63,294 nucleotides of DNA from Ignavibacteria bacterium RIFOXYC2_FULL_35_21 (GTDB taxonomy: Bacteria > Bacteroidota > Ignavibacteria > Kapaibacteriales > UBA2268): positions 1-63,294 of the forward strand of contig MHAY01000053.1 of NCBI GenBank assembly GCA_001804705.1, in the 5' to 3' direction. Below are positions 363-54,555 of the stretch, piece after piece (the first letter of the stretch is position 1; each line of letters starts with the position of its first letter). A program made the translations under genes and the position numbers. Below the pieces are notes generated by a model that saw only the letters and a list, made by a program, of their open reading frames with translations, was not told the origin of the DNA and did no database searches.

Positions 363-2381
363 CTATTTATTTTTTAAAATAACAAATTCAACCCTGCGGT
401 TTTGATGCCTACCTTCTTCGGTATTATTATCTGCAACAGGTTTTGAATCGCCAAATCCCTTTGTTATTAATCGGTTATACGGCACTCCATTAGTTGTAAG
501 ATATTCAGCAACTGCTCCAGCCCTGTTCTGAGATAATAATTTATTACTTTTGTCTTTGCCAATATTATCAGTATGACCGTTGATTTGAATTTTGATTGTC
601 GGATTATCATTCAAAAATTTAATTATTCGATTTAATTCGGGATATGAATCCTGGAGAATTTCATATTTACCAAATTCAAAGAACAGGTTGTTCATTTTTA
701 TAGTCTGGCCTTCTTCGATAGGAACGAGATATAAATCCTTTTTTTGTTCTTCGTATTTTTTTATATCCCTCAGGTCAAGGTTTTCATCAATTGCGATATA
801 ATCTTTTGCTTCGGCAATTACTCCATATTTTTCACCTGCAGGCAGAACTATTTTATATTCGCCGCTTATTGGATTTGTTCTTGCTATACCGGCTTCTTTA
901 CCATCAGGAAGAGTTTCATATTTGACTAAAGCATCAAGAGGCTCATTAGTTTTTGCATCAACAACCTTACCGGAAATGAGCATAACTGATTTAGGTTTTA
1001 ATTCAGATGGTAATTTGATACGGTAAATATCATGTAGATTTCCTTCATTACCTGTTGAAACGAAATAAGCGTATTCACCTGATGCTGTAATGGTATAATA
1101 AGCATCCCAGCCGGTTGTATTAATAGAACGGCCAAGATTCTCAGGTTCGGACCAATTAAGCCAAGTGCTGTCGAGCCTCCTCGAAAGAAACATGTCATTA
1201 TACCCATAGCCCGGATAACCTGCCGATGAAAAATAAAGTGTTTTTTCATCGGCGGCAATAAATGGAGAAACTTCATTGGATGCAGTATTAATTCCCTGTC
1301 CAATATTAATAGGTTCAGACCAACTTCCATCCTGCTGGTGAAAGCTCGCATAAATATCAAGGCCACCATAGGAATCCTCTCTTTCTAAGGACATCAGCAG
1401 GACTTTTCCGCTTGAAGCAAGGCAATAAGTAACCGATTTACTCATTGTATAAAATTTCTTTATTTTCAGACTGTCTGGCATTGTCCATTTATCTCCTCTG
1501 AAGTAACTGAGTGATATTCCCGGCTTCATTAAACCATCCGGTAAATAAATATTTCCTACAAGAAGCGAATTGCCATCAGGTGTGATTGAACATGCAAAAT
1601 TATTATTATCATTGTTAATGGGGGACCCAAGATTGACAGCATCTTTAAAATTTTCCATACTATCAATTTCGGACATCCAAATGTCCTCCTTTTTTTGGGC
1701 TCCAATATTTTCAGGATGTGATTCCCTCGTGAAAAATAATTTTTTTCCATCAGGTGAAATAATAGGAGAAAGCTCATCATACTTTGAATTGACAGCCCGA
1801 GTAAGCCTTTCTGGTGTTGCTGAAAAATTATTAGCTGAAACATAATGAATACCGAATTTAATTGTATCCAGCTCATCTGAAATTGCAATTGCATCAATTT
1901 GTGTTTCTGAAGTACCTGTTTCCGATTTTAACAATAATTTCAATTTATTTGTTTGAAAGTTGGTCCTGGTAATGAAAACATTGAACAATCTACCTTTTCT
2001 GGAATTGACTGTCTGAGTATCTGCTTTATAAACTGTCTGCTCCTTATCCGAATTATCAATTAATTTAATTTCTAATATATTACCCGGATTGAGGTTTTCG
2101 TTGACTGCAATTTGGGTTACATAAATTGCAGAATCGAATCCAACAGTTATAATTTCGTTTATGAATTGGCCCCTGTTCTTTGGAGTCCATGCACATGGTG
2201 TCCTACCAAAATCCGGCATTACACTTGGTTTGCCGGTTATTTGTTGAGCAGAATACAACTTTGTTCCATATTGTGTTGAGAATGAATTAACCTTTGATGC
2301 CCATAGAACAATGCTGTAAGCATTATAAGAGGAGGTTAAGCTAAATGCTAAAATGAGTAATATTAATTTTAAATTTTTCAT
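363..2381 (-). CDS. PD40 beta-propeller / OmpA-domain envelope protein (PorE-like)
   Basis: A 672-residue protein with an N-terminal signal peptide. A region around 60-170 resembles a carbohydrate-binding/discoidin-like beta-sandwich. PD40 (WD40-like) blades follow at about 195-460 with motifs such as SPIISPDGKKLFFTRE and SPFIAADEKTLYFSS, then a carboxypeptidase-regulatory-like fold (SGKVVDAKTNEPLDALV, about 475-550). A C-terminal OmpA domain (about 565-672) has the peptidoglycan-binding pattern NGHTDNIG...LSQNRAGAV...NRRVEF. PD40-CRD-OmpA is the layout of PorE, which anchors the T9SS to peptidoglycan, but the N-terminal TPR of classical PorE is absent. A T9SS or envelope-anchoring role is inference, supported by the T9SS cargo genes nearby. 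Confidence 0.85.
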   Translation of the reverse strand: MKNLKLILLILAFSLTSSYNAYSIVLWASKVNSFSTQYGTKLYSAQQITGKPSVMPDFGRTPCAWTPKNRGQFINEIITVGFDSAIYVTQIAVNENLNPGNILEIKLIDNSDKEQTVYKADTQTVNSRKGRLFNVFITRTNFQTNKLKLLLKSETGTSETQIDAIAISDELDTIKFGIHYVSANNFSATPERLTRAVNSKYDELSPIISPDGKKLFFTRESHPENIGAQKKEDIWMSEIDSMENFKDAVNLGSPINNDNNNFACSITPDGNSLLVGNIYLPDGLMKPGISLSYFRGDKWTMPDSLKIKKFYTMSKSVTYCLASSGKVLLMSLEREDSYGGLDIYASFHQQDGSWSEPINIGQGINTASNEVSPFIAADEKTLYFSSAGYPGYGYNDMFLSRRLDSTWLNWSEPENLGRSINTTGWDAYYTITASGEYAYFVSTGNEGNLHDIYRIKLPSELKPKSVMLISGKVVDAKTNEPLDALVKYETLPDGKEAGIARTNPISGEYKIVLPAGEKYGVIAEAKDYIAIDENLDLRDIKKYEEQKKDLYLVPIEEGQTIKMNNLFFEFGKYEILQDSYPELNRIIKFLNDNPTIKIQINGHTDNIGKDKSNKLLSQNRAGAVAEYLTTNGVPYNRLITKGFGDSKPVADNNTEEGRHQNRRVEFVILKNK

Positions 2382-2419
2382 ACTTAATCAGAAGAAAAAC
2401 GAATTAATATATTTTTGCT

Positions 2420-3439
2420 TTACCACCACCATTCCCTTTTTGACTGTCGTGTCATAAGGTCTTCGATGGCTTTGGATGGCTTCTTTCCTTTAAATAAAAT
2501 ATGATACATCTGTTCGATAATCGGTACTTCGACGTTATGTTTTTTAGCTAAGAAATAAGCAGACTCAGTTGTATAGATACCCTCGGCAATCATTTCCATG
2601 CTTTTTTGAATTTCCTTAACGCTTTTGCCCATCCCGATTTCTTCACCGACAAACCTGTTCCTGCTGAGCTTGCTATTGCATGTTACAAACAAATCACCAA
2701 GGCCTGAGAGGCCGGAGAATGTTATAGCGTTTGCCCCGATTGCCACACCAAGCCTTGTTATTTCTGCAAGGCCCCGGGTGATTAATGCGGCTTTTGTGTT
2801 ATCGCCGAGTTTTAATCCGTCAATAATTCCTGCGGCAATAGCTATGACATTCTTTAATGAACCGCCGATTTCACAACCAATAACATCATCAGTTGTATAA
2901 ATCCTGAAATAGGGTGTCATGAATATCGTTTGTATTTCTTTTGCATTACTAATGCTTTCCGAGGCGGCTACAACTGTCGTAGGCTGTTTCCTTGCTACTT
3001 CTTCGGCATGGCTGGGACCTGTTAATATTACAAATTGTTCAAAAGGAAGCCTGATTGTATTTGTTATAACTTCGGAAACCCGCATTAATGTATTCTTTTC
3101 TATACCTTTTGCCACACTCAAAATAATTTTATCTTTTATCCTGGGCAGGTTTTTCGATTTCAAAACGCTTCTTATATGCTGAGTCGGAATTGCAATAACA
3201 AAAATATCAGAGTCTTTTAATTCACTGATTTTTGTTGTAGCAATTACATTTTCGGGAATTGCCACACCGTTTAAAAAAATTGAATTAGTATGCTGCTTAT
3301 TGATTTCGTCAGCAATATAATCTTCATAAGTCCAAAGTTTTATTGAATGATGGTTGTCGTTTAGAGTAATTGAAAGCGCAGTTCCCCAGCCGCCTGCACC
3401 GAGTATGCCTATCTTATAAGTTTTTTTTTTCGGTTCCAA
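2420..3439 (-). CDS. gpsA: Glycerol-3-phosphate dehydrogenase [NAD(P)+]
   Basis: A cytoplasmic enzyme that reduces dihydroxyacetone phosphate to sn-glycerol 3-phosphate, the backbone for phospholipids. The 339 residues match the family length. The Rossmann motif GILGAGGWGTALS is near the N-terminus. The substrate-binding region contains the conserved catalytic-lysine stretch GGSLKNVIAIAAGI (about 190-203) and a NAKAALITRG-like stretch (DNTKAALITRG). It lies 20 nt downstream of plsY on the same strand, so the two genes that make and then acylate glycerol 3-phosphate are probably cotranscribed. Confidence 0.97.
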   Translation of the reverse strand: MEPKKKTYKIGILGAGGWGTALSITLNDNHHSIKLWTYEDYIADEINKQHTNSIFLNGVAIPENVIATTKISELKDSDIFVIAIPTQHIRSVLKSKNLPRIKDKIILSVAKGIEKNTLMRVSEVITNTIRLPFEQFVILTGPSHAEEVARKQPTTVVAASESISNAKEIQTIFMTPYFRIYTTDDVIGCEIGGSLKNVIAIAAGIIDGLKLGDNTKAALITRGLAEITRLGVAIGANAITFSGLSGLGDLFVTCNSKLSRNRFVGEEIGMGKSVKEIQKSMEMIAEGIYTTESAYFLAKKHNVEVPIIEQMYHILFKGKKPSKAIEDLMTRQSKREWWW

Positions 3440-3459
3440 GTTTTACCTTCAAAGATTTG

Positions 3460-4155
3460 TTAGGCAGAACTTTTTGATTTACATTTTATAACCTGTAATT
3501 TCGAAAAACGGTTTTCCGTTCCTTTTATCAGTCTTTTAATATTTGCACGGTGTGTGTATAAAATCAATACAGCTAATGCAATACTGAAATAAAGTAAAAT
3601 TTGATAACTTGGAATGTAATCCCTTAGTATATTATATCTGAATATCATTGAAAGTGGAATTGCTACTGCTGCAGAGATCGAACCTAATGAAATATATCCC
3701 GATAATAAAACGGCAATAATAAAAATTCCTATTGAAATGATTACATCAATTGGTAGAATTGCAATCAGCATGCCTGCAGTTGTGTTGATTCCCTTTCCTC
3801 CCCGGAAACCTGCAAAAACAGACCATACATGGCCTGCGACAGCACTGATTCCTGCAATCATTCTGACAATGGTTATATGCTCGAAAAAACCACCTGAACT
3901 GATTTGAATATCTCTGCCTAAAAGATTTGCAAATATGACCACAGGTATGACACCTTTTAAAATATCGGCGGCTTGAACAAACAATCCCCATTTCCAGCCG
4001 AGGATACGAATAGCATTTGTACTGCCCATATTTCCGCTTCCGCGTTCCCTGATGTCAAAGCCGAAAACACGTTTACTTACAATGATTGCCGATGGAATTG
4101 AACCTACAAGGTAAGATAGTGCAATTATGACGATTAAATTTATTAGCTGTTCCAT
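3460..4155 (-). CDS. plsY: Glycerol-3-phosphate acyltransferase PlsY
   Basis: An inner-membrane enzyme that transfers an acyl group from acyl phosphate to the sn-1 position of glycerol 3-phosphate. The 231-residue protein is mostly membrane segments. It carries the PlsY signatures RGSGNMGSTNAIR (about 37-49) and FRGGKGINTTAGM (about 118-130), the loops that bind acyl phosphate and glycerol phosphate. It directly precedes gpsA. The C-terminal tail, rich in lysine and serine, is slightly longer than usual. A 164-nt AT-rich gap separates it from the methyltransferase gene upstream, so a promoter probably lies there. Confidence 0.96.
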   Translation of the reverse strand: MEQLINLIVIIALSYLVGSIPSAIIVSKRVFGFDIRERGSGNMGSTNAIRILGWKWGLFVQAADILKGVIPVVIFANLLGRDIQISSGGFFEHITIVRMIAGISAVAGHVWSVFAGFRGGKGINTTAGMLIAILPIDVIISIGIFIIAVLLSGYISLGSISAAVAIPLSMIFRYNILRDYIPSYQILLYFSIALAVLILYTHRANIKRLIKGTENRFSKLQVIKCKSKSSA

Positions 4156-4319
4156 TTATTTCAACTTTAAATTTCTTAACAAAATTTTAACATTAACTTA
4201 CAAACTTAATTTATAAACTTCATAATTAAAATAGTTTTTTATAAATATGTTTGATGCCAATATACGGTATAATTCCGTTAAATTAACGTAAATCTTAATA
4301 ATTAATTGCAATTAACAGC

Positions 4320-5108
4320 TTAATCATTTATAAATTTATCTCGCTCCCTTTTCTGGAAGTAATACATTGAAATACCTGCAGAAACTGCAACGTTTAATGA
4401 TTCCGCACCTTTGCCGGGAATTACAAATTCACCTGTTAAAAGTTCTTTGACTTTTTTAGATATTCCATGAGACTCACTTCCGAAAATTAATCCGAATTTT
4501 CCTTTTAATTTTATGGATTCAATATTGTTTGTTGCTTCGAGTGATGCTCCAAATAATTCATGTTTTGGAAAAAGTGTTTTCAAAGATTTTTCAAAATTGA
4601 TTCCCGTTATAATTTTCATCCTGAATAATGAACCCATTGCAGCTCTAACAAGTTTTGGATTATATTTGCCAGTACAGCTTTCCGATAGTATAACCTGTTT
4701 AAAGCCGAACCACTCTGCAGTTCTTATTATAGTTCCGATATTACCGGGGTCAGCAATTTGGTCAAGTGCTATGAATGATTCTTTTGGTAAAGTTTCATCA
4801 TCTTTGAATTTTACAACAGCAAGAATATCCTGAGGAGTTACGGTATCACTGATTCTTAAGAAAGTTTTTTCATTCGTAAAATAAACAGGTACTTTATTTT
4901 GAGCAAAATTTTCAGCATGCTTTAATGTTTTAGGTGATGCTCCTTTTTTAAGAACTACAAATTTAGTTTTGTATGTGCTTTTGTATAGCTCATCACAGAG
5001 CTTAGCTCCTTCAACGAGGAATAGACTATTTTCCTCCCGTTTTTTTTTATTTTTTAATGAGCTGGTAAGTTTAATTAAACCTGTAGTCAGATTGTTCATA
5101 TTTTTCAT
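4320..5108 (-). CDS. TrmH/SpoU-family RNA 2'-O-methyltransferase
   Basis: A 262-residue SPOUT-fold enzyme. An N-terminal substrate-binding domain (EENSLFLVEGAKLCDEL, about 25-41) precedes the knotted SpoU domain. Motif 1 is visible in ALDQIADPGNIGTIIRTAEW, with the conserved N and R; motif 2 in FGSESHGIS; motif 3 in IPGKGAESLNVAVSAGI. The methyl donor is S-adenosylmethionine and the target is a ribose in rRNA or tRNA. The overall shape fits the RlmB/TsnR group, but the exact target cannot be read from the sequence. Its start lies 3 nt after the upstream CNNM gene, indicating cotranscription. Confidence 0.92.
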   Translation of the reverse strand: MKNMNNLTTGLIKLTSSLKNKKKREENSLFLVEGAKLCDELYKSTYKTKFVVLKKGASPKTLKHAENFAQNKVPVYFTNEKTFLRISDTVTPQDILAVVKFKDDETLPKESFIALDQIADPGNIGTIIRTAEWFGFKQVILSESCTGKYNPKLVRAAMGSLFRMKIITGINFEKSLKTLFPKHELFGASLEATNNIESIKLKGKFGLIFGSESHGISKKVKELLTGEFVIPGKGAESLNVAVSAGISMYYFQKRERDKFIND

Positions 5109-46092: not shown

Positions 46093-46788
46093 ATGAAATC
46101 ACAGGAAATAATTAAGAGATTGAAATCTTTAAGTAATAAGAAAAATGTCGAGGGAATTGCCCGGTTCGGGATTAATCCCGAAGGCACGCTTGGTATCCCT
46201 GTTACTACACTAAGAAAAATAGCAAAGGAAATTGGTAAAGGCCATGAACTCGCACAAGAGCTATGGGAAAGTGGTATTCATGAGGCGAGAATACTTGCGG
46301 CACTTATTGACATACCCTCGGAAGTTACTGTAAAACAAGCTGAAATATGGCTCAAAGGCCTCGATTCATGGGATGTCTGCGACCAGTTAATGATGAATCT
46401 GCTCGATAAAACCGGTTTTGCATTTAAAAAAGCTGCCGAATGGAGTAAAAGAAAGGCAGAATTTGAGAAAAGGGCAGGCTTTGCATTAATGGCATCTCTT
46501 GCCGTTCATGATAAGAAAGCAGGTGATAGTCAATTTAAATTATTTTTCCCGTTAATTATTGAAGCCTCGACTGACGAAAGAAATTTTGTTAAGAAATCTG
46601 TAAATTGGGCTTTGAGGCAAATCGGTAAAAGAAATATGGTACTTAATAAAAAAGTAATCGCAGTTTCTAACGAAATTATTAATAAATTTCCCGAATCCAA
46701 ATCTGCAAAGTGGATTGCAAAGGATGCACTTAGGGAATTGCAGGATGAAATAACAATTAAAAGAATAAATGAAAAGGAGAAAGGTTGA
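46093..46788 (+). CDS. DNA alkylation repair protein, AlkD-like
   Basis: A 231-residue all-helical protein of the AlkD/HEAT-like-repeat family, which removes bulky or positively charged alkylated bases. Typical stretches are GIARFGINPEGTLGIPVTTL (about 20-39), LAQELWESGIHEARILAALI, VKQAEIWLKGLDSWDVCDQL and NFVKKSVNWALRQIGKRN. The conserved tryptophans and the WDxCD aspartate of the catalytic groove are present. It is transcribed away from the SpoIIE phosphatase (102-nt divergent gap) and its stop lies 1 nt before the next gene's ATG. Confidence 0.9.
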   Translation: MKSQEIIKRLKSLSNKKNVEGIARFGINPEGTLGIPVTTLRKIAKEIGKGHELAQELWESGIHEARILAALIDIPSEVTVKQAEIWLKGLDSWDVCDQLMMNLLDKTGFAFKKAAEWSKRKAEFEKRAGFALMASLAVHDKKAGDSQFKLFFPLIIEASTDERNFVKKSVNWALRQIGKRNMVLNKKVIAVSNEIINKFPESKSAKWIAKDALRELQDEITIKRINEKEKG

Positions 46789-46789
46789 T

Positions 46790-48160
46790 ATGAAAAAAAA
46801 TATTATCATTATTTCTTTTATTTTAACAGGATTATTATTGTTTTCCTGTAAGGAAGAATCAAAAAAAATCGAGGAACAATTTTCAGTTACTAAAACCCAG
46901 GAAGAGAAATATGAACTTCTTAATAATCTAAATGATGCAATAAATAAAGAGCCGTACAATATGGATGCATGGAACCAGAAAGGGATTCTTCTTGCTGATT
47001 TGAAAAGATATGACGAAGCTTTGGCTGCATTCAATAAAGCAGTCGAAATTAATCCTAATCTTGCTCTGAACTGGTATAATAAAGGTTTTATGGAAAACAA
47101 ACTTGGCAAAAATGAAGAAGCAGTCAATTCATACAATGAAGCAATAAAAATTAATTCGAATTATTATAAAGCTTATTATAGCCGTGGTATTGCACTGTCG
47201 GAACTTGGAAAACATGAAGAATCTATTAAGTCGTATGATGAAGCAATAAAAATATTTCCCGATTATGACAGCGCATGGGTAAATAAAGGTATTGAACTAT
47301 CCGGAATAGGCAAATATAACCAAGCATTGGAGGCTTATGACAAAGCTCTGTCAATCAATCCTAAATTCGTTTTTGCATACTACAATAAAGGATTGCTGTT
47401 GACTGTAATGAATAAATATGACGATGCCCTTGCTTGTTATTATAAAGCAGTCGAGTATAATCCTAAATATGAGATTGCATGGTACAACATGGGTAACCTG
47501 CTCTCAAATCTTGGCAGGTTTGACGAAGCAATTTATGCACAGGACAAAGCATTATCACTCAATCCCAATAAAGAGGATAACTGGAATAATAAAGGTGTGG
47601 CATTATCGAGTAAGGGTAATTATGATGAAGCAATTAATTGCTTCCTGAAAGCGAAGGAGTTAAATCCAAATAATGACAAAACATGGTACAATCTTGGCAA
47701 TACATATCTAAGTCTGAAAAAGTCGGATGAGGCTTATGAATCTTACAAAAAAGCAATTTCACTCAATCCTAATTATGATAATGCGTGGAATAATCTCGGT
47801 ACATTAAACCTTGCTCTCGGCAGGAATGACGAAGCGTTGAGCAACTATAAAAAAGCAACCGAACTAAACCCTAAGAACAAGAGTGCATGGTATAATTTTG
47901 CAATTGCATATTTCAAAATGAATAAATATAATGAGTCACTGGTCTGCTTTGATAAAGTCATAGAGATTAAACACGACGACGCAGGTGCATATTATGTCAG
48001 AGCTTGTATTTATTCGTTACAGAAAAACAAAGTAAAAGCACTTGTATCTTTGGAAAAAGCACTGACACTTGCACCTCAATACAAGGAAAGAGCTAAGACG
48101 GACAAATATCTTGAGAATATAAGAAATGAGGGGAAGTTTAAAAAGATGGTGGTGGAATGA
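46790..48160 (+). CDS. TPR-repeat lipoprotein
   Basis: 456 residues from the ATG at 46790, the start that gives a lipoprotein signal (KKNIIIISFILTGLLLFSCK, lipobox LLFSC). The rest is about a dozen 34-residue tetratricopeptide repeats with a regular AWYNKGxxLxxLGKYDEAIxSYDKAIxINP pattern (for example WYNMGNLLSNLGRFDEAI). The repeats form a scaffold for protein binding; no enzymatic domain is visible. It follows the AlkD-like gene with a 1-nt gap, so translation is probably coupled, though no functional link is obvious. Confidence 0.9.
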   Translation: MKKNIIIISFILTGLLLFSCKEESKKIEEQFSVTKTQEEKYELLNNLNDAINKEPYNMDAWNQKGILLADLKRYDEALAAFNKAVEINPNLALNWYNKGFMENKLGKNEEAVNSYNEAIKINSNYYKAYYSRGIALSELGKHEESIKSYDEAIKIFPDYDSAWVNKGIELSGIGKYNQALEAYDKALSINPKFVFAYYNKGLLLTVMNKYDDALACYYKAVEYNPKYEIAWYNMGNLLSNLGRFDEAIYAQDKALSLNPNKEDNWNNKGVALSSKGNYDEAINCFLKAKELNPNNDKTWYNLGNTYLSLKKSDEAYESYKKAISLNPNYDNAWNNLGTLNLALGRNDEALSNYKKATELNPKNKSAWYNFAIAYFKMNKYNESLVCFDKVIEIKHDDAGAYYVRACIYSLQKNKVKALVSLEKALTLAPQYKERAKTDKYLENIRNEGKFKKMVVE

Positions 48161-48182
48161 GGTAATTCAGAGTTTCATAGAA

Positions 48183-49601
48183 TTATTTTAAAATTTTTAC
48201 TATTTTATTAAGACATTTCTTTAAATCATTATCTATATCCTTTTCCCAGAATCTGAGAACAATCCAACCCGATTTTGATAATATTACAGTATTTTTTTTA
48301 TCTCTTTGAATCGTTTTTTCAATTTTATTTGTCCAATAGTCTTTGTTTGATTTAATCCTTGATTTTTTAGCCTTCCAATTATAGCCATGCCAAAATTCTC
48401 CATCAACAAAAACGGCTACTTTTTTTTCCTTAAATACAATATCCGGTTTGCCGGTTATAAATGTATTTTTTAATGAATACCTATAACCCAAATTCCATAT
48501 TGCTTTTCTTAATATTATCTCTGGTCTAGTGTCTTTCGATTTAATCTTTGACATTAATTTCGACCTAGTTTTGCTTGTTTTAAAGCCATACTTTGTTATT
48601 ATTGAATTTTCTTTAATGTTTAATAAATATTCTTTTATATTTTTAGCAAATAGATTAGCTAATTTGACAGGTACAGCATTCCCAACTAACTTATAACCAT
48701 CATTTAAGTATTTATAATAAAAAATAAAATCATCGGGGAATGTCTGAATTCTTGCACACTCTCTTATTGTTAATCTTCTATATTTATTTTCATGCTTTTT
48801 ATTAAAAGTCATAACATCTTTTTTAACAACTTCCATGGGCGGGGCTTTGGGATGTAAAGGAGTTTGTCTGCCACTTGCTTGTAGAGTAAAGGATGGTTTG
48901 TCCCAATCTAATACTCTGTTTCTTGACATAAATATGTACGAAAAAGTACCAACCCAATACTCATGATTTGGCACTGCACATTTTAAACCATTAGTATAAT
49001 TATTGCCTTTTGGTTTTTTTGCATTATTTTTTAAATCACTTATAAAATTTATTACAGGTATAATATTTTTTGGTTTTGTACTAAAATCATATTCAATATT
49101 TAAAGATTTTTTAAAGCCAACAAAAAAAACTCTTTTTCGATTTTGAGGTACTCCAAAATCCTTTGCATTAACCTTGATGATTTTAACAGTATATCCAGCC
49201 GCATCAAAACCATCCAAAATATCATTTAAAGCAACGTTATGTCTCATATTCAAAATACCAAGAACATTTTCAGCTAAAAAAAATTTAGGTGTTTTGTCTT
49301 TAACGACCCGAACGAACTCAAGGAATAATTTACCTCGAGGATCATCTATACCTTTGCCGTTACCTGCAATACTCCAGCTCTGACAAGGTGGACCACCAAT
49401 TATTCCGTCAATCTCATTTGGAATTTCTTTGGAAGGTATATCTATAATACTCCTTTTATCAAGATTTGTTTCAGGAAAATTATTTTTGTATGTTTCCCAT
49501 ACTTTACTATCGTTATCATTTGCCCAAATAATTTTATACCCGGCTTTTTTAAAGCCCAAATCAAGGCCACCACAGCCGGAAAATAGGGAAATAATTTTCA
49601 T
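48183..49601 (-). CDS. Fused DNA cytosine-5 methyltransferase - Vsr-type endonuclease
   Basis: A 472-residue fusion. Residues 1-330 are a complete C5 methyltransferase: FSGCGGLDLGFKKAG, GGPPCQSW with catalytic Cys73, AENVLG (111-113), and QNRKRVFFVGF, with a target region (200-300) that closely recalls M.HaeIII as I remember it (NGxKCxxPNHEY, FMSRNRVxxW, QASGRQxxLHPxAP, YRRLTxRECARxQxFPDDF). GGCC specificity is therefore inferred. Residues 345-472 are a Vsr-like mismatch endonuclease: MSKIKSKDTRPEIILRKAIW, GKPDIVF with Asp387, GEFWHGYNW with His405, KIEKTIQRD, GWIVLRFWEKDI. The zinc cysteines/histidine of E. coli Vsr are replaced (E402, Y407, W409). It starts 4 nt after the preceding nuclease-like gene. 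Confidence 0.92.
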   Translation of the reverse strand: MKIISLFSGCGGLDLGFKKAGYKIIWANDNDSKVWETYKNNFPETNLDKRSIIDIPSKEIPNEIDGIIGGPPCQSWSIAGNGKGIDDPRGKLFLEFVRVVKDKTPKFFLAENVLGILNMRHNVALNDILDGFDAAGYTVKIIKVNAKDFGVPQNRKRVFFVGFKKSLNIEYDFSTKPKNIIPVINFISDLKNNAKKPKGNNYTNGLKCAVPNHEYWVGTFSYIFMSRNRVLDWDKPSFTLQASGRQTPLHPKAPPMEVVKKDVMTFNKKHENKYRRLTIRECARIQTFPDDFIFYYKYLNDGYKLVGNAVPVKLANLFAKNIKEYLLNIKENSIITKYGFKTSKTRSKLMSKIKSKDTRPEIILRKAIWNLGYRYSLKNTFITGKPDIVFKEKKVAVFVDGEFWHGYNWKAKKSRIKSNKDYWTNKIEKTIQRDKKNTVILSKSGWIVLRFWEKDIDNDLKKCLNKIVKILK

Positions 49602-49605
49602 AAAA

Positions 49606-50613
49606 TTAACTGAATAATTGTTCCTTGTATTTAATCAAATCACCAATTAACTTATAACATGAAAGCATTTCGAACACGTCAATATTCTTCTTTAAATGAA
49701 AAATTAATCTATTACGGTCAATCAATATTGACTTACGAATTGTTGTTTCTTTAACCCAATTTCCATCTAACTTTCTATAATTATGAGGAATAAATAGAAA
49801 TCTCTGAGGGTATGTTTTTAATGAAATAATCTCATTCCAGGTATCATAACTAATTTCAAGCTGCTTTGCTTTCCATTTATTCTCAGGTGAACAAGTGCAT
49901 TGTACGAAATAGATAGGAATACTATTTAATGAATCGTTATTTGGTATCCATGCAACTAAGTCTAAGCCTGCATCACCACAGTCTCTTTCCGAGAATTCGT
50001 TCTCAGGATATTGAATTTTTTCTCTAATATGTTTTACTAATTCTTTTATTCTATCATTTTTTTTTGAATACTTTAAAAAAAGAGTATCTTCATTAGCTAA
50101 AGGTTCAGTGTTACTACTTCCAAATAAGTGTATTTCTGCATTTTGAGGAAGAAAATCTTTTAAAGCTTCTTTACTTATTATTTCAAAACTACTTGTAAAA
50201 TATTGCCAATGGCTTACCTTAATATCATCTAAATTTGAAGCTAATAATAAAAATAAATATATTTTGTGTTTTATAATTAATGAATCTTTTATTGTAACAA
50301 CTTTACCATCATTTGTAATTTCAAAAGGGTAAAAGTCTTTAAATAAGTGAGCACGGTATTTCAACATATTTAAGCAATCTTTGTAGAAAATTTCTTGCTT
50401 ATCATCTCTTGTTGGTTTATCTGGTTCTTCAAAATCAAACAAATCTACATCATTGTTACTTTTGAATTCATCTTCATCATTTGGGAAATCAAAAAGTTCA
50501 CAAATTGAGAATGCTTTATCGGGATGTGTAATTGTTTTGAGTTCTACATAATCAGCCCATTTATTAATATCTTTATTTCTAGGAGGTTTAGATAAATCTA
50601 TAAATAAACACAT
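49606..50613 (-). CDS. Putative PD-(D/E)xK-type nuclease next to the methyltransferase
   Basis: A 335-residue protein I do not recognise by name. The best clue is about residues 205-245: ERDCGDAGLDLVAWIPNN followed by IPIYFVQCTCSPENKWKAK. This has the shape of a restriction-type PD-(D/E)xK core (D, then a strand ending in QCT/K where many enzymes have ExK or QxK). The residue after QC is T, not K, so catalysis would need a nearby lysine (for example KWKAK) or the site is altered. The N-terminal half is acidic and helical. Its position, 4 nt before a HaeIII-like methyltransferase-Vsr fusion and 20 nt after a ParB-like gene, makes it the candidate restriction enzyme of the operon. Confidence 0.6.
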   Translation of the reverse strand: MCLFIDLSKPPRNKDINKWADYVELKTITHPDKAFSICELFDFPNDEDEFKSNNDVDLFDFEEPDKPTRDDKQEIFYKDCLNMLKYRAHLFKDFYPFEITNDGKVVTIKDSLIIKHKIYLFLLLASNLDDIKVSHWQYFTSSFEIISKEALKDFLPQNAEIHLFGSSNTEPLANEDTLFLKYSKKNDRIKELVKHIREKIQYPENEFSERDCGDAGLDLVAWIPNNDSLNSIPIYFVQCTCSPENKWKAKQLEISYDTWNEIISLKTYPQRFLFIPHNYRKLDGNWVKETTIRKSILIDRNRLIFHLKKNIDVFEMLSCYKLIGDLIKYKEQLFS

Positions 50614-50633
50614 ATTTATTATTAATCTCCAAA

Positions 50634-51746
50634 TTAAACGTGCTTTTTTTCAAGAATCGTTTTTAAATTCCCACTTATTTCAATTATGTCTGATAATTTA
50701 TTTTCACAAATTCTAACTTTGCTTATAAAATCGTCATCGGATTCTTTTTCCTGTTTTGATATTTTATGGGTATAGTCTCTAGCTATATCCAAACTAACAA
50801 AAGCATCATCTATACTGGTTGTAAAAATTTTTATAGGTTCATCAGTTAATAAAATAGCTTTATCAAGAGGCGAACCTTCTTTAAATGCTTTTAATGCCGA
50901 TGGTTTTGATACAATTTCATTTAAATATCTTATATTTCTTGAATCTCCTAATCTAGTTAAACCCTGTTCATTTTCTTTAAACATCCAAATGGTAAGGTCT
51001 TTTAAATTATTTTCAATAATCCTTTCTGCAGGTTTGTCGGAATCAAGATCCAGACCAATAAAAACCGCTATATTTTTTCTGCTAACTGCTGTATAAAATT
51101 TACCAAAGCTAAAATCAGTCTCATTTAAATTTCTAATATTATAAAAGTTGCTATCTTCTATTTTTTTATATAATTTATAACCTATCAATAAATTCTTTAC
51201 GTATGAAGTTTTACTACCAATTATTTTTGCTAAAATTCTATATTGCTCTATTAAATCAGTACCGATTAATGTTTTCTGTGTTTCAAATAAAAATCTTGCT
51301 TTTGCAAGTGCATCCCAAGATTTTGGTCCAGTTATATGTTTGTATCCCAAATATATTAGGATTTCATTTCTTGATAAATACTCAATAACAGGCAATTCTG
51401 AGAGCTTTATCCCTGGTTTTATCGTTTCCGATAATTCCTTAATAGATTCTTTTTTAATGATAGTTAATGTTGGGTTAGTTAAAAGTTTTACAGCAGCTAA
51501 TCGCCTATTACCTTCGACAACTGTGTAATAACCAACTTCTTCATTTTTTACAACTAATAACGGTTCTGCCCTGAAATAACCTTTTTCCCCAATTGAGCCC
51601 ATAAGTTCAATGATATTCTCATTGATTAGAATCCATTCGAGTATCTCTTTTTGGCTTGCTTTTTTGTATCTTGTTGGAAGTCAAGGATTTTCAGGGTCGA
51701 AAAGCAATTTCTCAACAGGTAAATCTTTAATTTCTTGTGTTGCCAT
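50634..51746 (-). pseudogene. ParB-like (ParB/sulfiredoxin-fold) protein with in-frame stop
   Basis: From the ATG at 51746 the frame encodes MATQEIKDLPVEKLLFDPEN, a proline, and then a TGA at 51681-51683 (codon 22). It continues in the same frame: LPTRYKKASQKEILEWILIN, ENIIELMGSIGEKGYF, then VVEGNRRLAAVKLL, the ParB nucleotide-binding box. Family members have DPxNPR at the stop position, so a CGA-to-TGA change is likely. An internal ATG at 51602 leaves 322 residues lacking the first strand of the ParB fold. Proteins of this type are CTP-dependent DNA clamps or nucleases and occur in defence operons. The residues after about 150 are unrecognised. Confidence 0.75.
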
Positions 51747-51842
51747 TGTAATTTTTATTTAATTTATTTTTAATAATAATTTCAAAAATAATCTTTAAAA
51801 TATTCTATACAAAAATCAATTTAATAAAATTTCTAATATATT

Positions 51843-52199
51843 CTACAATTCGACATTTTCCCATTCTCCCTTGCTTCTGTCATCACCCAATTTATCTTCT
51901 AAATATTTCAAAAATGAATCGCTGGTTACTAATGATTTTGCTATTCTATTAAATTTCTTCATTTCTTTCTTTGTTACTTCCCAGGCAAGAGAATCTTCAT
52001 ATTTTCCGGTAACATCATCTAATCCTTCATCACCTATTAGTTGCCCTAATACTGAGTTCAAATTATTAATTCCCGAATACTTCTTAGATTTCTTGCAGAC
52101 AGCTCTCAATGTCCAAAAGCACACCCCATCATCAAATGTTTCATTGATGATTCTAAAATAATATTTATTTCCTATAATAGAAGTTTGATTTGTTGCCAT
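51843..52199 (-). CDS. Hypothetical small protein at the head of the defence-like operon
   Basis: 118 residues from the ATG at 52199 (MATNQTSIIGNKYYFRI); a GTG at 52214 would add five. It is charged and mixed alpha/beta in appearance (FDDGVCFWTLRAVCKKSKKY, SLAWEVTKKEMKKFNRIAKS), without a motif I recognise. It is transcribed in the same direction as the ParB-like, nuclease-like and methyltransferase-Vsr genes, 96 nt upstream of the ParB-like start, so it probably belongs with them. The opening ATGGCAACA is shared with the ParB-like gene start. Confidence 0.6.
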   Translation of the reverse strand: MATNQTSIIGNKYYFRIINETFDDGVCFWTLRAVCKKSKKYSGINNLNSVLGQLIGDEGLDDVTGKYEDSLAWEVTKKEMKKFNRIAKSLVTSDSFLKYLEDKLGDDRSKGEWENVEL

Positions 52200-52275
52200 T
52201 TGTTCAAATATCACAAAGATTCTTATTATTATAACAGATATATTATTTCATCTGCAAAAATAATAAAGTTCGATG

Positions 52276-52293
52276 TCATATCATTGATGATAT
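52276..52293. terminator. Palindrome between pnp and the defence-like operon
   Basis: CATATCAT and ATGATATG form an 8-bp perfect palindrome with a 2-nt centre, 28 nt after the pnp stop on the minus strand. No T-run follows, so it may be a 3'-end stabiliser, an operator for the following small gene, or a weak terminator. Confidence 0.4.
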
Positions 52294-52320
52294 GATTCAA
52301 GATGAGATTATATTGAATTG

Positions 52321-54555
52321 TTAATATCTTCTTCTTGGTCCTCTTCTGTCGTCTCCGCGGCGGTCATCCCGTCTGTTTCCATCCGGACGTCTGCCACGTG
52401 ATGAATCCCTACGTTTGTAATCATCATCTTCTTCGGGCATTCCTTCAGGCCTGGGAAGTAATGCCTTGCGGCTTAGACGGAATTTTCCGTCAGGAGTAAC
52501 TTCGAGTAATTTTACTTCGATTTTATCGCCAACTTTCATTACTTCACTGATGTTTATCGTTCTTTCGTGGGCTATCTGCGAAATGTGGAGTAGTCCCTGC
52601 TTTTTTGGAATGAATTCAATGAATGCACCCATGCCTTCACGAATTTCAACTACTGTGCCAGTATAAACTTCACCTTCTTCAGGTTTTTTTATTATGCTTT
52701 CAATCATTTTTCTTGCATCATCACTTGACTGACCGGATGTAGCGGCAATCGTGATGACACCATCATCATTAATGTCAATCTCTGCTCCTGTTTCCTTCAC
52801 TATACTCCTTATAGTCTCTCCACCGCTGCCGATAACTGCACCAATAGACTCGGTAGGTATCTGCATCATGGTGAATCGTGGAGCATAAGGTGAGAGGTCT
52901 CCCCTCGGTTCAGAAATAAGTTCGTTCATTTTTGAAAGTATATGAAGTCTTCCCTGTTTAGCTTGTTCAAGTGCTTTTGCCATAATTTCAAGTGGCAATC
53001 CCTCGATTTTAATATCCATCTGGCATGCAGTGATTCCATCGGCAGTTCCTGTAACTTTAAAGTCCATGTCGCCGAGAAAATCTTCGTCGCCAAGTATATC
53101 GCTTAAAATTGCAATTTTATCTTCTTCTTTAATTAAGCCCATCGCAATTCCTGCAACAGCTTTTTTCATAGGTACTCCCGCATCAAATAGTGCCAAACTA
53201 CCTGAACAAACAGATGCCATCGAAGATGAACCGTTAGATTCGAGAATTTCAGATATAACACGAATTGCATAAGGAAAATCTTCTTTTTCGGGAAGCATGA
53301 TTTCTAAAGCACGTTGGGCAAGATGTCCGTGACCGATTTCTCTTCTTCCGGTCCCCATTCTACCTGTTTCACCGGTACAAAACGGAGGAAAGTTGTAATG
53401 GAGTAAAAACCTGTTAGTGTATGTCGGCAGCAAACCGTCAATCATCTGTTCGTCACGTTTTGTTCCTAGTGTAACCATTCCAAGACTCTGTGTTTCGCCT
53501 CTTGTGAATAAAGCAGAACCATGAACTCGTGGAAGAATTCCAACTTCACAGGAAATCGGGCGGATGTCTGTTGTTGTTCTGCCGTCAAGTCTTTTGCCAT
53601 CGTCGAGAATCATTTTTCTCATTTCCTGCTTTTCGAGTTTGGAAAGAACTTCTTCACCGTATAATGAAAAGTCAAAATCTTTGTATTCTTCCTTCTCGGC
53701 AAAGGTTTCAGTCAATTTTTCGATTGCAATGTCTTTCAGTTTTTTTCTCGACTCGCTTCTTTCGCTCTTAGTTGTAACAGTGTGAACATACTTCACAAGT
53801 TCATCTGATACTGCATTTTTAACAGTATCTATTATCTCAGGTGGAATTTCTTTTTCAATAAATTCTCTTTTTGCAACTTGTACTTTAGCTGCAAGCTGTC
53901 TCTGTAAATCATTTAATTGTCGAATTTTCTCGTGAGCAAATTCGAGTGTTTTCAGAAAATCTTCTTCGGAAATTTCGTGGCTTTCACCTTCAACCATAAC
54001 GATAGATGTGTCGGTTCCGGCAATTGTCATGTCAATGTCTGATTGCTCGAGAGGTGTTAATGAAGGATTAATTATGAATTCTCCGTTTACCCTGCCAACC
54101 TTAACTTCGGAAACAGGACCATTAAAGGGGATATCAGAAATCAATAATGCCGCAGAAGCTCCGATAGCACCCAAAGTAAATGGAGGGACATCGGATTCAA
54201 ATGAAACAACATTAGCAATAAGCTGAGTGTCAAACCTCCAAGATTTAGGAAACATTGGCCTTATAGGACGGTCAATCAAACGGGAACATAAAACTTCGTG
54301 GTCGCTGGGCCTTGTTTCTCTTTTGAGGAAACCACCCGGAAATTTACCTGCGGCAGATGCTTTTTCCCTGTATTCAACCTGCAAAGGCATGTAATCAACA
54401 TCTTTTTTCTCTTCATTTTCGGCAACTACAGTCACCAAAACCATTGTATCGCCACAGCTAACCATAACCGAGCCGCCGGCGAATTTTGCGAATCTTCCGG
54501 TTTCCAATGAATAAGTTTTTCCGGCAAATTCAATACTTGCTACTTCTTTTGACAT
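52321..54555 (-). CDS. pnp: Polyribonucleotide nucleotidyltransferase (PNPase)
   Basis: A phosphate-dependent 3'-to-5' exoribonuclease. The 744 residues carry two RNase PH domains (about 5-215 and 310-540, with FPGGFLKRETRPSDHEVLCS and GRREIGHGHLAQRAL) joined by a helical domain. A KH domain follows (about 560-620, IGAVIGSGGETIRSIVKETG), then an S1 domain (about 625-695, YTGTVVEIREGMGAFIEF). The last 30 or so residues are an Arg/Asp/Gly-rich tail (RRDDRRGDDRRG), which may add RNA binding. It ends the nusA-to-pnp cluster, after rpsO, the order seen in many bacteria. Confidence 0.97.
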   Translation of the reverse strand: MSKEVASIEFAGKTYSLETGRFAKFAGGSVMVSCGDTMVLVTVVAENEEKKDVDYMPLQVEYREKASAAGKFPGGFLKRETRPSDHEVLCSRLIDRPIRPMFPKSWRFDTQLIANVVSFESDVPPFTLGAIGASAALLISDIPFNGPVSEVKVGRVNGEFIINPSLTPLEQSDIDMTIAGTDTSIVMVEGESHEISEEDFLKTLEFAHEKIRQLNDLQRQLAAKVQVAKREFIEKEIPPEIIDTVKNAVSDELVKYVHTVTTKSERSESRKKLKDIAIEKLTETFAEKEEYKDFDFSLYGEEVLSKLEKQEMRKMILDDGKRLDGRTTTDIRPISCEVGILPRVHGSALFTRGETQSLGMVTLGTKRDEQMIDGLLPTYTNRFLLHYNFPPFCTGETGRMGTGRREIGHGHLAQRALEIMLPEKEDFPYAIRVISEILESNGSSSMASVCSGSLALFDAGVPMKKAVAGIAMGLIKEEDKIAILSDILGDEDFLGDMDFKVTGTADGITACQMDIKIEGLPLEIMAKALEQAKQGRLHILSKMNELISEPRGDLSPYAPRFTMMQIPTESIGAVIGSGGETIRSIVKETGAEIDINDDGVITIAATSGQSSDDARKMIESIIKKPEEGEVYTGTVVEIREGMGAFIEFIPKKQGLLHISQIAHERTINISEVMKVGDKIEVKLLEVTPDGKFRLSRKALLPRPEGMPEEDDDYKRRDSSRGRRPDGNRRDDRRGDDRRGPRRRY

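Follow-up and report, generated by a model that had tools for sequence, protein, structure and literature searches.

The window analysed here, positions 1-63,294 of contig MHAY01000053.1 (GCA_001804705.1) of Ignavibacteria bacterium RIFOXYC2_FULL_35_21, carries a cassette of three minus-strand genes. These encode a ParB-like protein (50634..51746), a PD-(D/E)xK-like nuclease (49606..50613; ‘the nuclease’) and a C5-cytosine DNA methyltransferase (MTase) with a C-terminal Vsr-type T:G mismatch endonuclease (48183..49601); all positions are those of the whole window. The cassette is probably a mobile unit of the restriction-modification type, in which a ParB-fold switch licenses the nuclease unless the mark of its partner enzyme is present. 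In the proposed mechanism, the ParB-like protein and the nuclease would form one restriction module. The ParB-fold protein would bind DNA as a switch driven by an NTP, probably CTP; by scanning DNA or loading on it, it would allow the nuclease to cut DNA without the mark. The mark itself would come from an exchangeable enzyme, here a HaeIII-type 5-methylcytosine (m5C) MTase with a built-in Vsr repair domain, and elsewhere a D12 adenine MTase or the Dnd phosphorothioation machinery. The sequences show the gene pairing, the range of partners, the conserved residues and the cassette exchange on which this reading is based, together with predicted folds. From them we infer NTP binding, clamp loading, cleavage, a mark that protects rather than triggers, and an anti-phage function.

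Pairing of the ParB-like protein with the nuclease

Patterns from the ParB-like alignment picked out 467 relatives among genome contigs and 87 among viral ones, and the loci of the best 80 of each set were analysed. The nuclease was present in 78 of the 80 bacterial and 79 of the 80 viral ParB loci, and the two genes lay on the same strand in all 157 measured pairs, with a median gap of −8 nt. Two of the three nuclease-less loci (L073 and L116) end at or right after the ParB gene. The third, L045, differs: at positions 414-4690 the ParB relative is followed by a gene for an SNF2/DEAD-type helicase, which may be a different effector linked to this ParB family.

The pairing was also seen from the side of the nuclease. 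When 395 genomes of the phylum were searched with a nuclease profile, nine had matches, the window's own included, and in this reverse query a ParB gene adjoined the nuclease gene in 10 of 11 distinct loci besides the window, the eleventh being cut by the contig start; two of the 11 were added from the 60 relatives searched. Of 99 further genomes searched with a ParB profile, three had a match. The distances between ParB-like proteins and those between nucleases were closely correlated (r = 0.886 over 6670 pairs; maximum of 1000 permutations 0.059). As far as sequences can tell, the ParB-like protein and the nuclease are one tightly linked pair. They are separate proteins throughout the listing of the fetched loci, where no open frame matched both profiles. 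An unannotated gut phage scaffold holds two convergent ParB-nuclease pairs (L006:3845-8723), with no C5-MTase match beside them in that stretch.

Modification enzymes beside the pair

Partner enzymes were counted within three genes of the pair, and Dnd and MTase identities were assigned with Pfam and PADLOC on representatives and by clustering for the rest. A C5-MTase was near the pair in 25/80 genome and 77/80 viral loci. Dnd genes were near it in 41 of the 80 genome loci, and none of the 80 had both. Neither partner was found at 14 genome loci, 10 of them at locus ends, and at three viral loci, all at locus ends. The sequence-only reading had presented the genes as a candidate defence operon and had proposed a search for co-occurrence with C5-MTases; the ParB-like protein, the nuclease and C5-MTases do occur together elsewhere, far beyond chance.

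In 22 of the 41 Dnd loci the genes run DndC-DndD-DndE-ParB-nuclease on one strand with nothing intervening, DndE often being a DndE-HerA fusion. Several Proteobacteria have instead a DndH-like gene, ParB and the nuclease, followed by DndE-D-C-B on the opposite strand. These arrangements bear on the idea that the pair is an abortive-infection (suicide) unit carried on modification systems, which fires indiscriminately when modification fails. Backup effectors have been proposed for Dnd loci (accessible text of PMC10853773), and ParB and restriction endonuclease (REase)-fold proteins are among the toxin-like parts listed for type I and type III systems (accessible text of PMC3506569). A position directly after DndC-DndD-DndE is, however, where a restriction component would be expected; this is suggestive only, and we regard a suicide unit as very unlikely.

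In L078:4393-5973 the gene directly before the pair encodes a 527-aa fusion of DndE (residues 6-105) with a HerA/DndH-like ATPase (DndH-like part 152-500), and genes of its cluster and size recur in Bacteroidota Dnd loci. Pfam also identified a restriction enzyme with HARE-HTH and Mrr-type domains near the pair (L034:8038-8847 and L052:8099-8914); genes of the same cluster are found in L043, L048 and L072, and in four of these five loci the gene directly follows the pair.

A third type of partner, a D12-class adenine MTase directly upstream of ParB, was found at five loci from the relatives' and phylum searches, with the D12 match in L202 covering only part of the protein. Two of the five were run against PADLOC, and both had PD-Lambda-5_B as their best match (1.1e-110 and 2.6e-43). 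At L198:3972-8407 the pair shares its locus with a PD-Lambda-5_B-type MTase and with a full PD-Lambda-5_A (8.1e-170) in convergent orientation.

The history of these associations was examined with a quick tree of 117 joined ParB and nuclease rows, 104 of which could be labelled C5 or Dnd. With the 13 unlabelled rows omitted, the tree needs a single change of partner type; treating ‘none’ as a state raises this to 10. The 37 Dnd rows fall within one 44-row clade (99), and the window lies within an eight-row C5 clade (96) near the Dnd clade. When the D12 and other rows were added (126 rows, 112 of them labelled), two changes sufficed, or 12 with ‘none’ as a state; this tree is unrooted, and two long branches meet in it. 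The C5-MTase did not follow the pair closely. For 63 non-redundant triples, r was 0.90 for ParB-nuclease, 0.23 for ParB-MTase and 0.28 for nuclease-MTase, and the P2-type phages L002 and L003 have MTases that are 97.8% identical, with ParB proteins 33% and nucleases 20% identical. These comparisons indicate that partner chemistry switched rarely and that the C5-MTase itself is loosely coupled, and the contrast between the two phages points to module exchange within the P2 accessory locus.

Predicted folds and conserved residues

The nuclease (335 aa) matches phrog_3984 at 2.6e-49; its best E values were 0.24 in Pfam and 0.044 in NCBIfam, and PADLOC gave no match. Its family has a conserved core, GDxGxD...QC...W..K, containing D218, Q238 and K250 of the window's protein. 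D218, Q238, R87, R300 and R302 are invariant in 82/82 rows and K250 is present in 80/82, the active-site lysine being displaced from its classical place. Nine added rows kept the D and Q, and the lysine column of the five D12 rows among them reads S, S, R, K, K. An AlphaFold2 model from the 82-row alignment (pLDDT 92.6) was closest to MspJI (Z 8.0 over 134 residues, 3.8 Å), followed by Card1, SdaI, N.BspD6I, AspBHI (rank 10) and BsaWI, with FokI and Can2 lower; the titles of the further top rows are nearly all those of restriction, nicking or defence nucleases. With Foldseek alone, MspJI came at E 0.013 and no match fell below 0.001. In a profile match to MspJI (E 0.085), the GDGGxD motif and the Q motif fall on chain positions 334 and 355, which we take to be catalytic. 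The family differs from MspJI in its separate ParB partner and in having no lysine two residues after the Q in the window or in most rows. The identification of a PD-(D/E)xK-like nuclease made from the letters alone was borne out by the predicted fold and the conserved residues, and the model gives an MspJI-like core.

The ParB-like protein was matched by phrog_3694 across nearly its full length (1.8e-89); TIGR00180 scored 33.1 bits, under its cut-off of 58.45 bits. In its EGNRR box the E, G, N and second R are present in 67/67 rows and the first R in 66. Since the window's own frame is broken (see below), a homologue from Olivibacter (L007) was modelled, with a pLDDT of 93.8. The model matched KorB (Z 11.2 over 200 residues), Noc (Z 10.6) and CDP-bound ParB (7bnk; Z 10.2, 95 residues, 2.1 Å), and its best Foldseek E value was 1.3e-5; folds such as DUF262 or DndB are absent from the VIA rows of this comparison, which carries no weight either way. 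A CTPase fold, a ParB-type helix-turn-helix region and long C-terminal helices are all predicted. Of the features that mark the ParB/Srx CTPase fold, the N-terminal fold is present in the homologue model and the nucleotide-binding box in the alignment, and the earlier identification as a ParB-like protein stands. Because the model has the CTPase fold, the helix-turn-helix region and the C-terminal helices, a clamp that controls cleavage is structurally possible.

The best structural neighbour is KorB, a plasmid repressor, which would fit a reading in which the ParB-like protein acts as KorB does, regulating or silencing transcription of a simple type II restriction-modification set, with the nuclease cutting alone. 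Many restriction-modification sets carry control genes. A regulator should, however, be more replaceable than is seen here, with the ParB-nuclease correlation at 0.89–0.90 and the MTase tracking neither protein well (0.23, 0.28), and we consider this explanation improbable.

A stronger candidate, still an unlikely one in our view, is a modification-sensing effector like SspE or DndI, in which the ParB-like protein recognizes a mark, self or phage, and the signal activates or poises the nuclease. MspJI is the nearest match to the nuclease core, and the lower-ranking AspBHI is titled a modification-dependent endonuclease. ParB/Srx-fold NTPases with nucleases in GmrSD, BrxU, SspE and DndI take modified DNA as their cue (accessible text of PMC10952713 and PMC11662687). 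Against this, three chemically different marks beside the pair fit exclusion by the mark better than they fit a conserved reader, and Pfam, run on the ParB-like protein from residue 49 onward and on its first 48 residues separately, found no modification-reader domain in this protein or in the window's nuclease.

The third protein (472 aa) was confirmed as the MTase-Vsr fusion that had been recognized at the outset, with clear Pfam matches to DNA_methylase (9.1e-96, residues 1-323) and Vsr (7.6e-27, residues 342-410) and a TIGR vsr match of 5.8e-40. In the PDB, M.HaeIII (1dct) matched residues 1-324 at 9.1e-118 and Vsr (1cw0) matched at 2.5e-13. The predicted specificity is GGCC, the HaeIII site, because M.HaeIII is the closest solved structure.

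Cassette exchange at the insertion site

The coordinates confirmed the sequence-only reading of four genes in one direction with short gaps, placed between a TPR gene (46769-48160, plus strand) and pnp (52321-54555, minus strand). From the small gene to the MTase-Vsr gene, the successive gaps are 96, 20 and 4 nt. A promoter scan was uninformative (26 sites, 26.4 in shuffles). The fourth gene (51843..52214, minus strand) encodes a small protein of 123 aa, for which a search of Pfam, PADLOC, NCBIfam and PHROG gave only a marginal PHROG match (E 0.019). A 118-aa copy of it, 79% identical, lies at the same site in the congener G001, beside an unrelated N6_N4-type MTase. Blastn of the window against this G001 locus (L183) aligned only 48047-48152 and 51836-52528, besides hits of at most 31 bases. 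Since G001 has the small gene while the alignment skips the segment that holds the other three genes (48153..51835), the small gene goes with the site. A system of four genes, as first proposed, is therefore reduced to three.

In G001 and G002 the slot is occupied by a 292-aa N6_N4-type MTase followed by a 276-aa protein (L183:119-2173; L184:499-2210). On the G001 copies, the only ones run against Pfam, the MTase is PF01555 at 1.8e-42 and the 276-aa protein has no match; the latter is probably the restriction enzyme of this MTase. In G003 only 31 bases separate the matched ends of the flanking genes. The search of 60 relatives found the nuclease in four genomes, the window's own included, with no match in G001, G002 or G003. 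On this comparison, the slot between pnp and the TPR gene is a restriction-cassette exchange site in this genus.

Interrupted genes in the window and elsewhere

An intact system in this genome is not supported, since the ParB-like frame is interrupted: the gene (371 codons with the stop, ATG at 51746) has an in-frame TGA at codon 22 (51683-51681). At this column the other 66 of 66 alignment rows share one residue, so the stop is a real loss or a sequence error. As to a possible recoding of TGA, the genes adjoining the ParB-like gene read normally with TGA as a stop. Downstream, an open frame of 322 aa begins at an ATG at 51602. If the TGA is real, the window's copy has probably lost the ability to restrict, because this remaining frame lacks the first 48 residues. 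The MTase-Vsr and nuclease frames are intact.

Disruptions were also looked for in Escherichia coli, where E. coli W carries a copy of the cassette in its P2-type prophage WPhi. The WPhi-type pair was present at ≥99% identity in 103 of 5426 complete E. coli genomes, and at least 80% of the WPhi-type trio was likewise present at ≥99% identity in 103 genomes. The MTase, or one 90-95% identical to it, was found in 139 genomes, in 139/139 of which one place covers at least 80% of the gene. One of the 36 genomes with the less identical MTase was inspected, and it holds a divergent ParB-nuclease pair. The Dnd-linked pair of L051 had no DNA-level match in E. coli.

The sample of disruptions came from 10 rows for the trio and the 60 listed of 103 rows for the pair, in which five genomes showing an insertion sequence (IS) element or an extra hypothetical protein were inspected. 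Three had IS5-type insertions and two had split frames, and in 5/5 the disruption was in the nuclease gene; the ParB and MTase protein accessions are unchanged across all five. Two of the fetched loci also have a split nuclease away from contig ends, L081 and L097 (the latter viral, split by about 0.9 kb), and the only short MTase away from a locus end is in L049. The window's own loss is in the ParB-like gene. On balance, this pattern of attrition is what a restriction-modification set should show.

Relation to known systems

PD-lambda-5, described as a broadly protective, compacted RM+Abi (restriction-modification plus abortive-infection) system (Vassallo et al. 2022; accessible text of PMC9519451), is likewise a modification-linked, prophage-borne defence. 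PD-lambda-5_A-type proteins share a homologous ParB domain (hhalign 99.7%, E 1.3e-25; four proteins), and PD-Lambda-5_B models match the D12 MTases that accompany one clade of the pair. PD-lambda-5_A is, however, longer than the ParB-like protein, and the window's protein matches the best PD-Lambda-5_A model (466 positions) at residues 5-169 only. The window's MTase is of the C5 class, and no PD-Lambda-5_B was among the best 25 of its 63 PADLOC matches. Homology between the C-terminal part of PD-lambda-5_A and the nuclease was considered and rejected (hhalign probability 0.06, four-row profile); the sequence of this part gave an impression of a HEPN-like domain, for which Pfam had nothing significant. 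A PADLOC candidate carrying no description, PDC-M38A (715 positions), matches residues 42-364 of the ParB-like protein at 6.9e-19 and the P2 homologue at 6.5e-25. Its second half is unmatched by the ParB-like protein, and the nuclease matches no PADLOC model.

GmrSD, BrxU, SspE and DndI also couple a ParB-superfamily NTPase to a nuclease and to DNA modification (accessible text of PMC10952713 and PMC11662687). They consist of a DUF262 ParB-Srx NTPase with a DUF1524 HNH nuclease, whereas the pair is two separate proteins with a PD-(D/E)xK-like rather than an HNH nuclease and an EGNRR rather than a DGQQR box; neither DUF262 nor DUF1524 had a Pfam match at E up to 1 in the window's pair. The likeness to Dnd systems with DndFGH lies in the frequent proximity to Dnd genes, and no match to DndF, DndG or DndH was found for the window's ParB-like protein and nuclease among the PADLOC sequence models. 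The cassette resembles a type II restriction-modification system of the HaeIII type in the full-length match of its MTase to M.HaeIII and in the 4 nt between the MTase and nuclease genes. It differs in that the nuclease has a ParB-like partner and, in relatives, stands beside unrelated marks; the near-constant pairing argues for a nuclease that depends on its ParB partner.

The operon had been put forward as a candidate for an undescribed system, and this claim stands in part. No Pfam or NCBIfam model names the ParB-nuclease pair, and no description of it was found in open-licence PMC, subscription papers, figures and supplements being outside the scope. Its ParB domain and, in one clade, its MTase are, however, common to PD-lambda-5, so it is not wholly apart from systems already named. 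A ParB-CTPase survey reports ParB-fold fusions to MTases (accessible text of PMC12704722), and a reappraisal of Dnd systems applies the word ParB only to DndB (accessible text of PMC10853773). The accessible text of neither paper mentions the pair, and the same is true of that of a BREX survey (PMC12839542), PMC8569181, PMC12904381 and DefensePredictor (PMC13092281); the available part of PMC3506569, with its list of toxin-like components, does not name the pair itself. Overall, the association proposed at the outset was largely right, and too much had been credited to the small gene and to the condition of this copy.

Discussion

Several observations weigh against a mark-excluded restriction cassette. 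The activity of every member is a prediction. MspJI is modification-dependent, which points the opposite way on the role of the mark. The nuclease has only a modest fold match (Foldseek E 0.013; Z 8.0, with a tool for which values below 8 are common), and three of the five D12-clade rows have S, S and R in place of the lysine. Four of the 14 partner-less genome loci are not at a locus end, one of which, L034, has DndC and DndD farther away. Ten of the 41 Dnd loci also carry a gene of DndH size, in each case from the same cluster (DndF and DndG were outside this search), so that the pair is not the sole candidate restriction part there. At L049:8285-8596, a whole pair stands beside a mere fragment of a C5-MTase (model positions 2-102 of 317), the sole match to this family there, which runs counter to the attrition pattern. 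Finally, near-identical MTases beside divergent pairs mean that the MTase does not reveal the sequence specificity of the pair itself.

The range of partners is the most useful finding, with one ParB-nuclease module beside m5C, N6-methyladenine (m6A) and phosphorothioate enzymes. Restriction is normally tied to one chemistry, the nuclease being blocked by one methyl group at one site. If one module does work with all three marks, it must sense protection indirectly, perhaps through whether the ParB clamp can load or slide. A bolder form of the restriction reading, which we put forward tentatively and hold to be less likely than not, is a modification-agnostic module in which an NTP-fuelled ParB-type clamp with its own nuclease reads protection whatever the chemistry of the mark. 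The two genes would then have been joined during evolution to cytosine methylation, to adenine methylation and to sulphur in the DNA backbone, and may replace DndFGH in Dnd operons. The uncoupling of Dnd from DndFGH is reported to be common (accessible text of PMC10853773), and the pair could supply the restriction part for such Dnd operons. The WPhi copy in E. coli W makes the idea testable in a laboratory strain. If the mark-excluded restriction reading is true, two unnamed families, PHROGs 3694 and 3984, would be filled in, and the CTP-clamp principle would be extended from chromosome partition to immunity.

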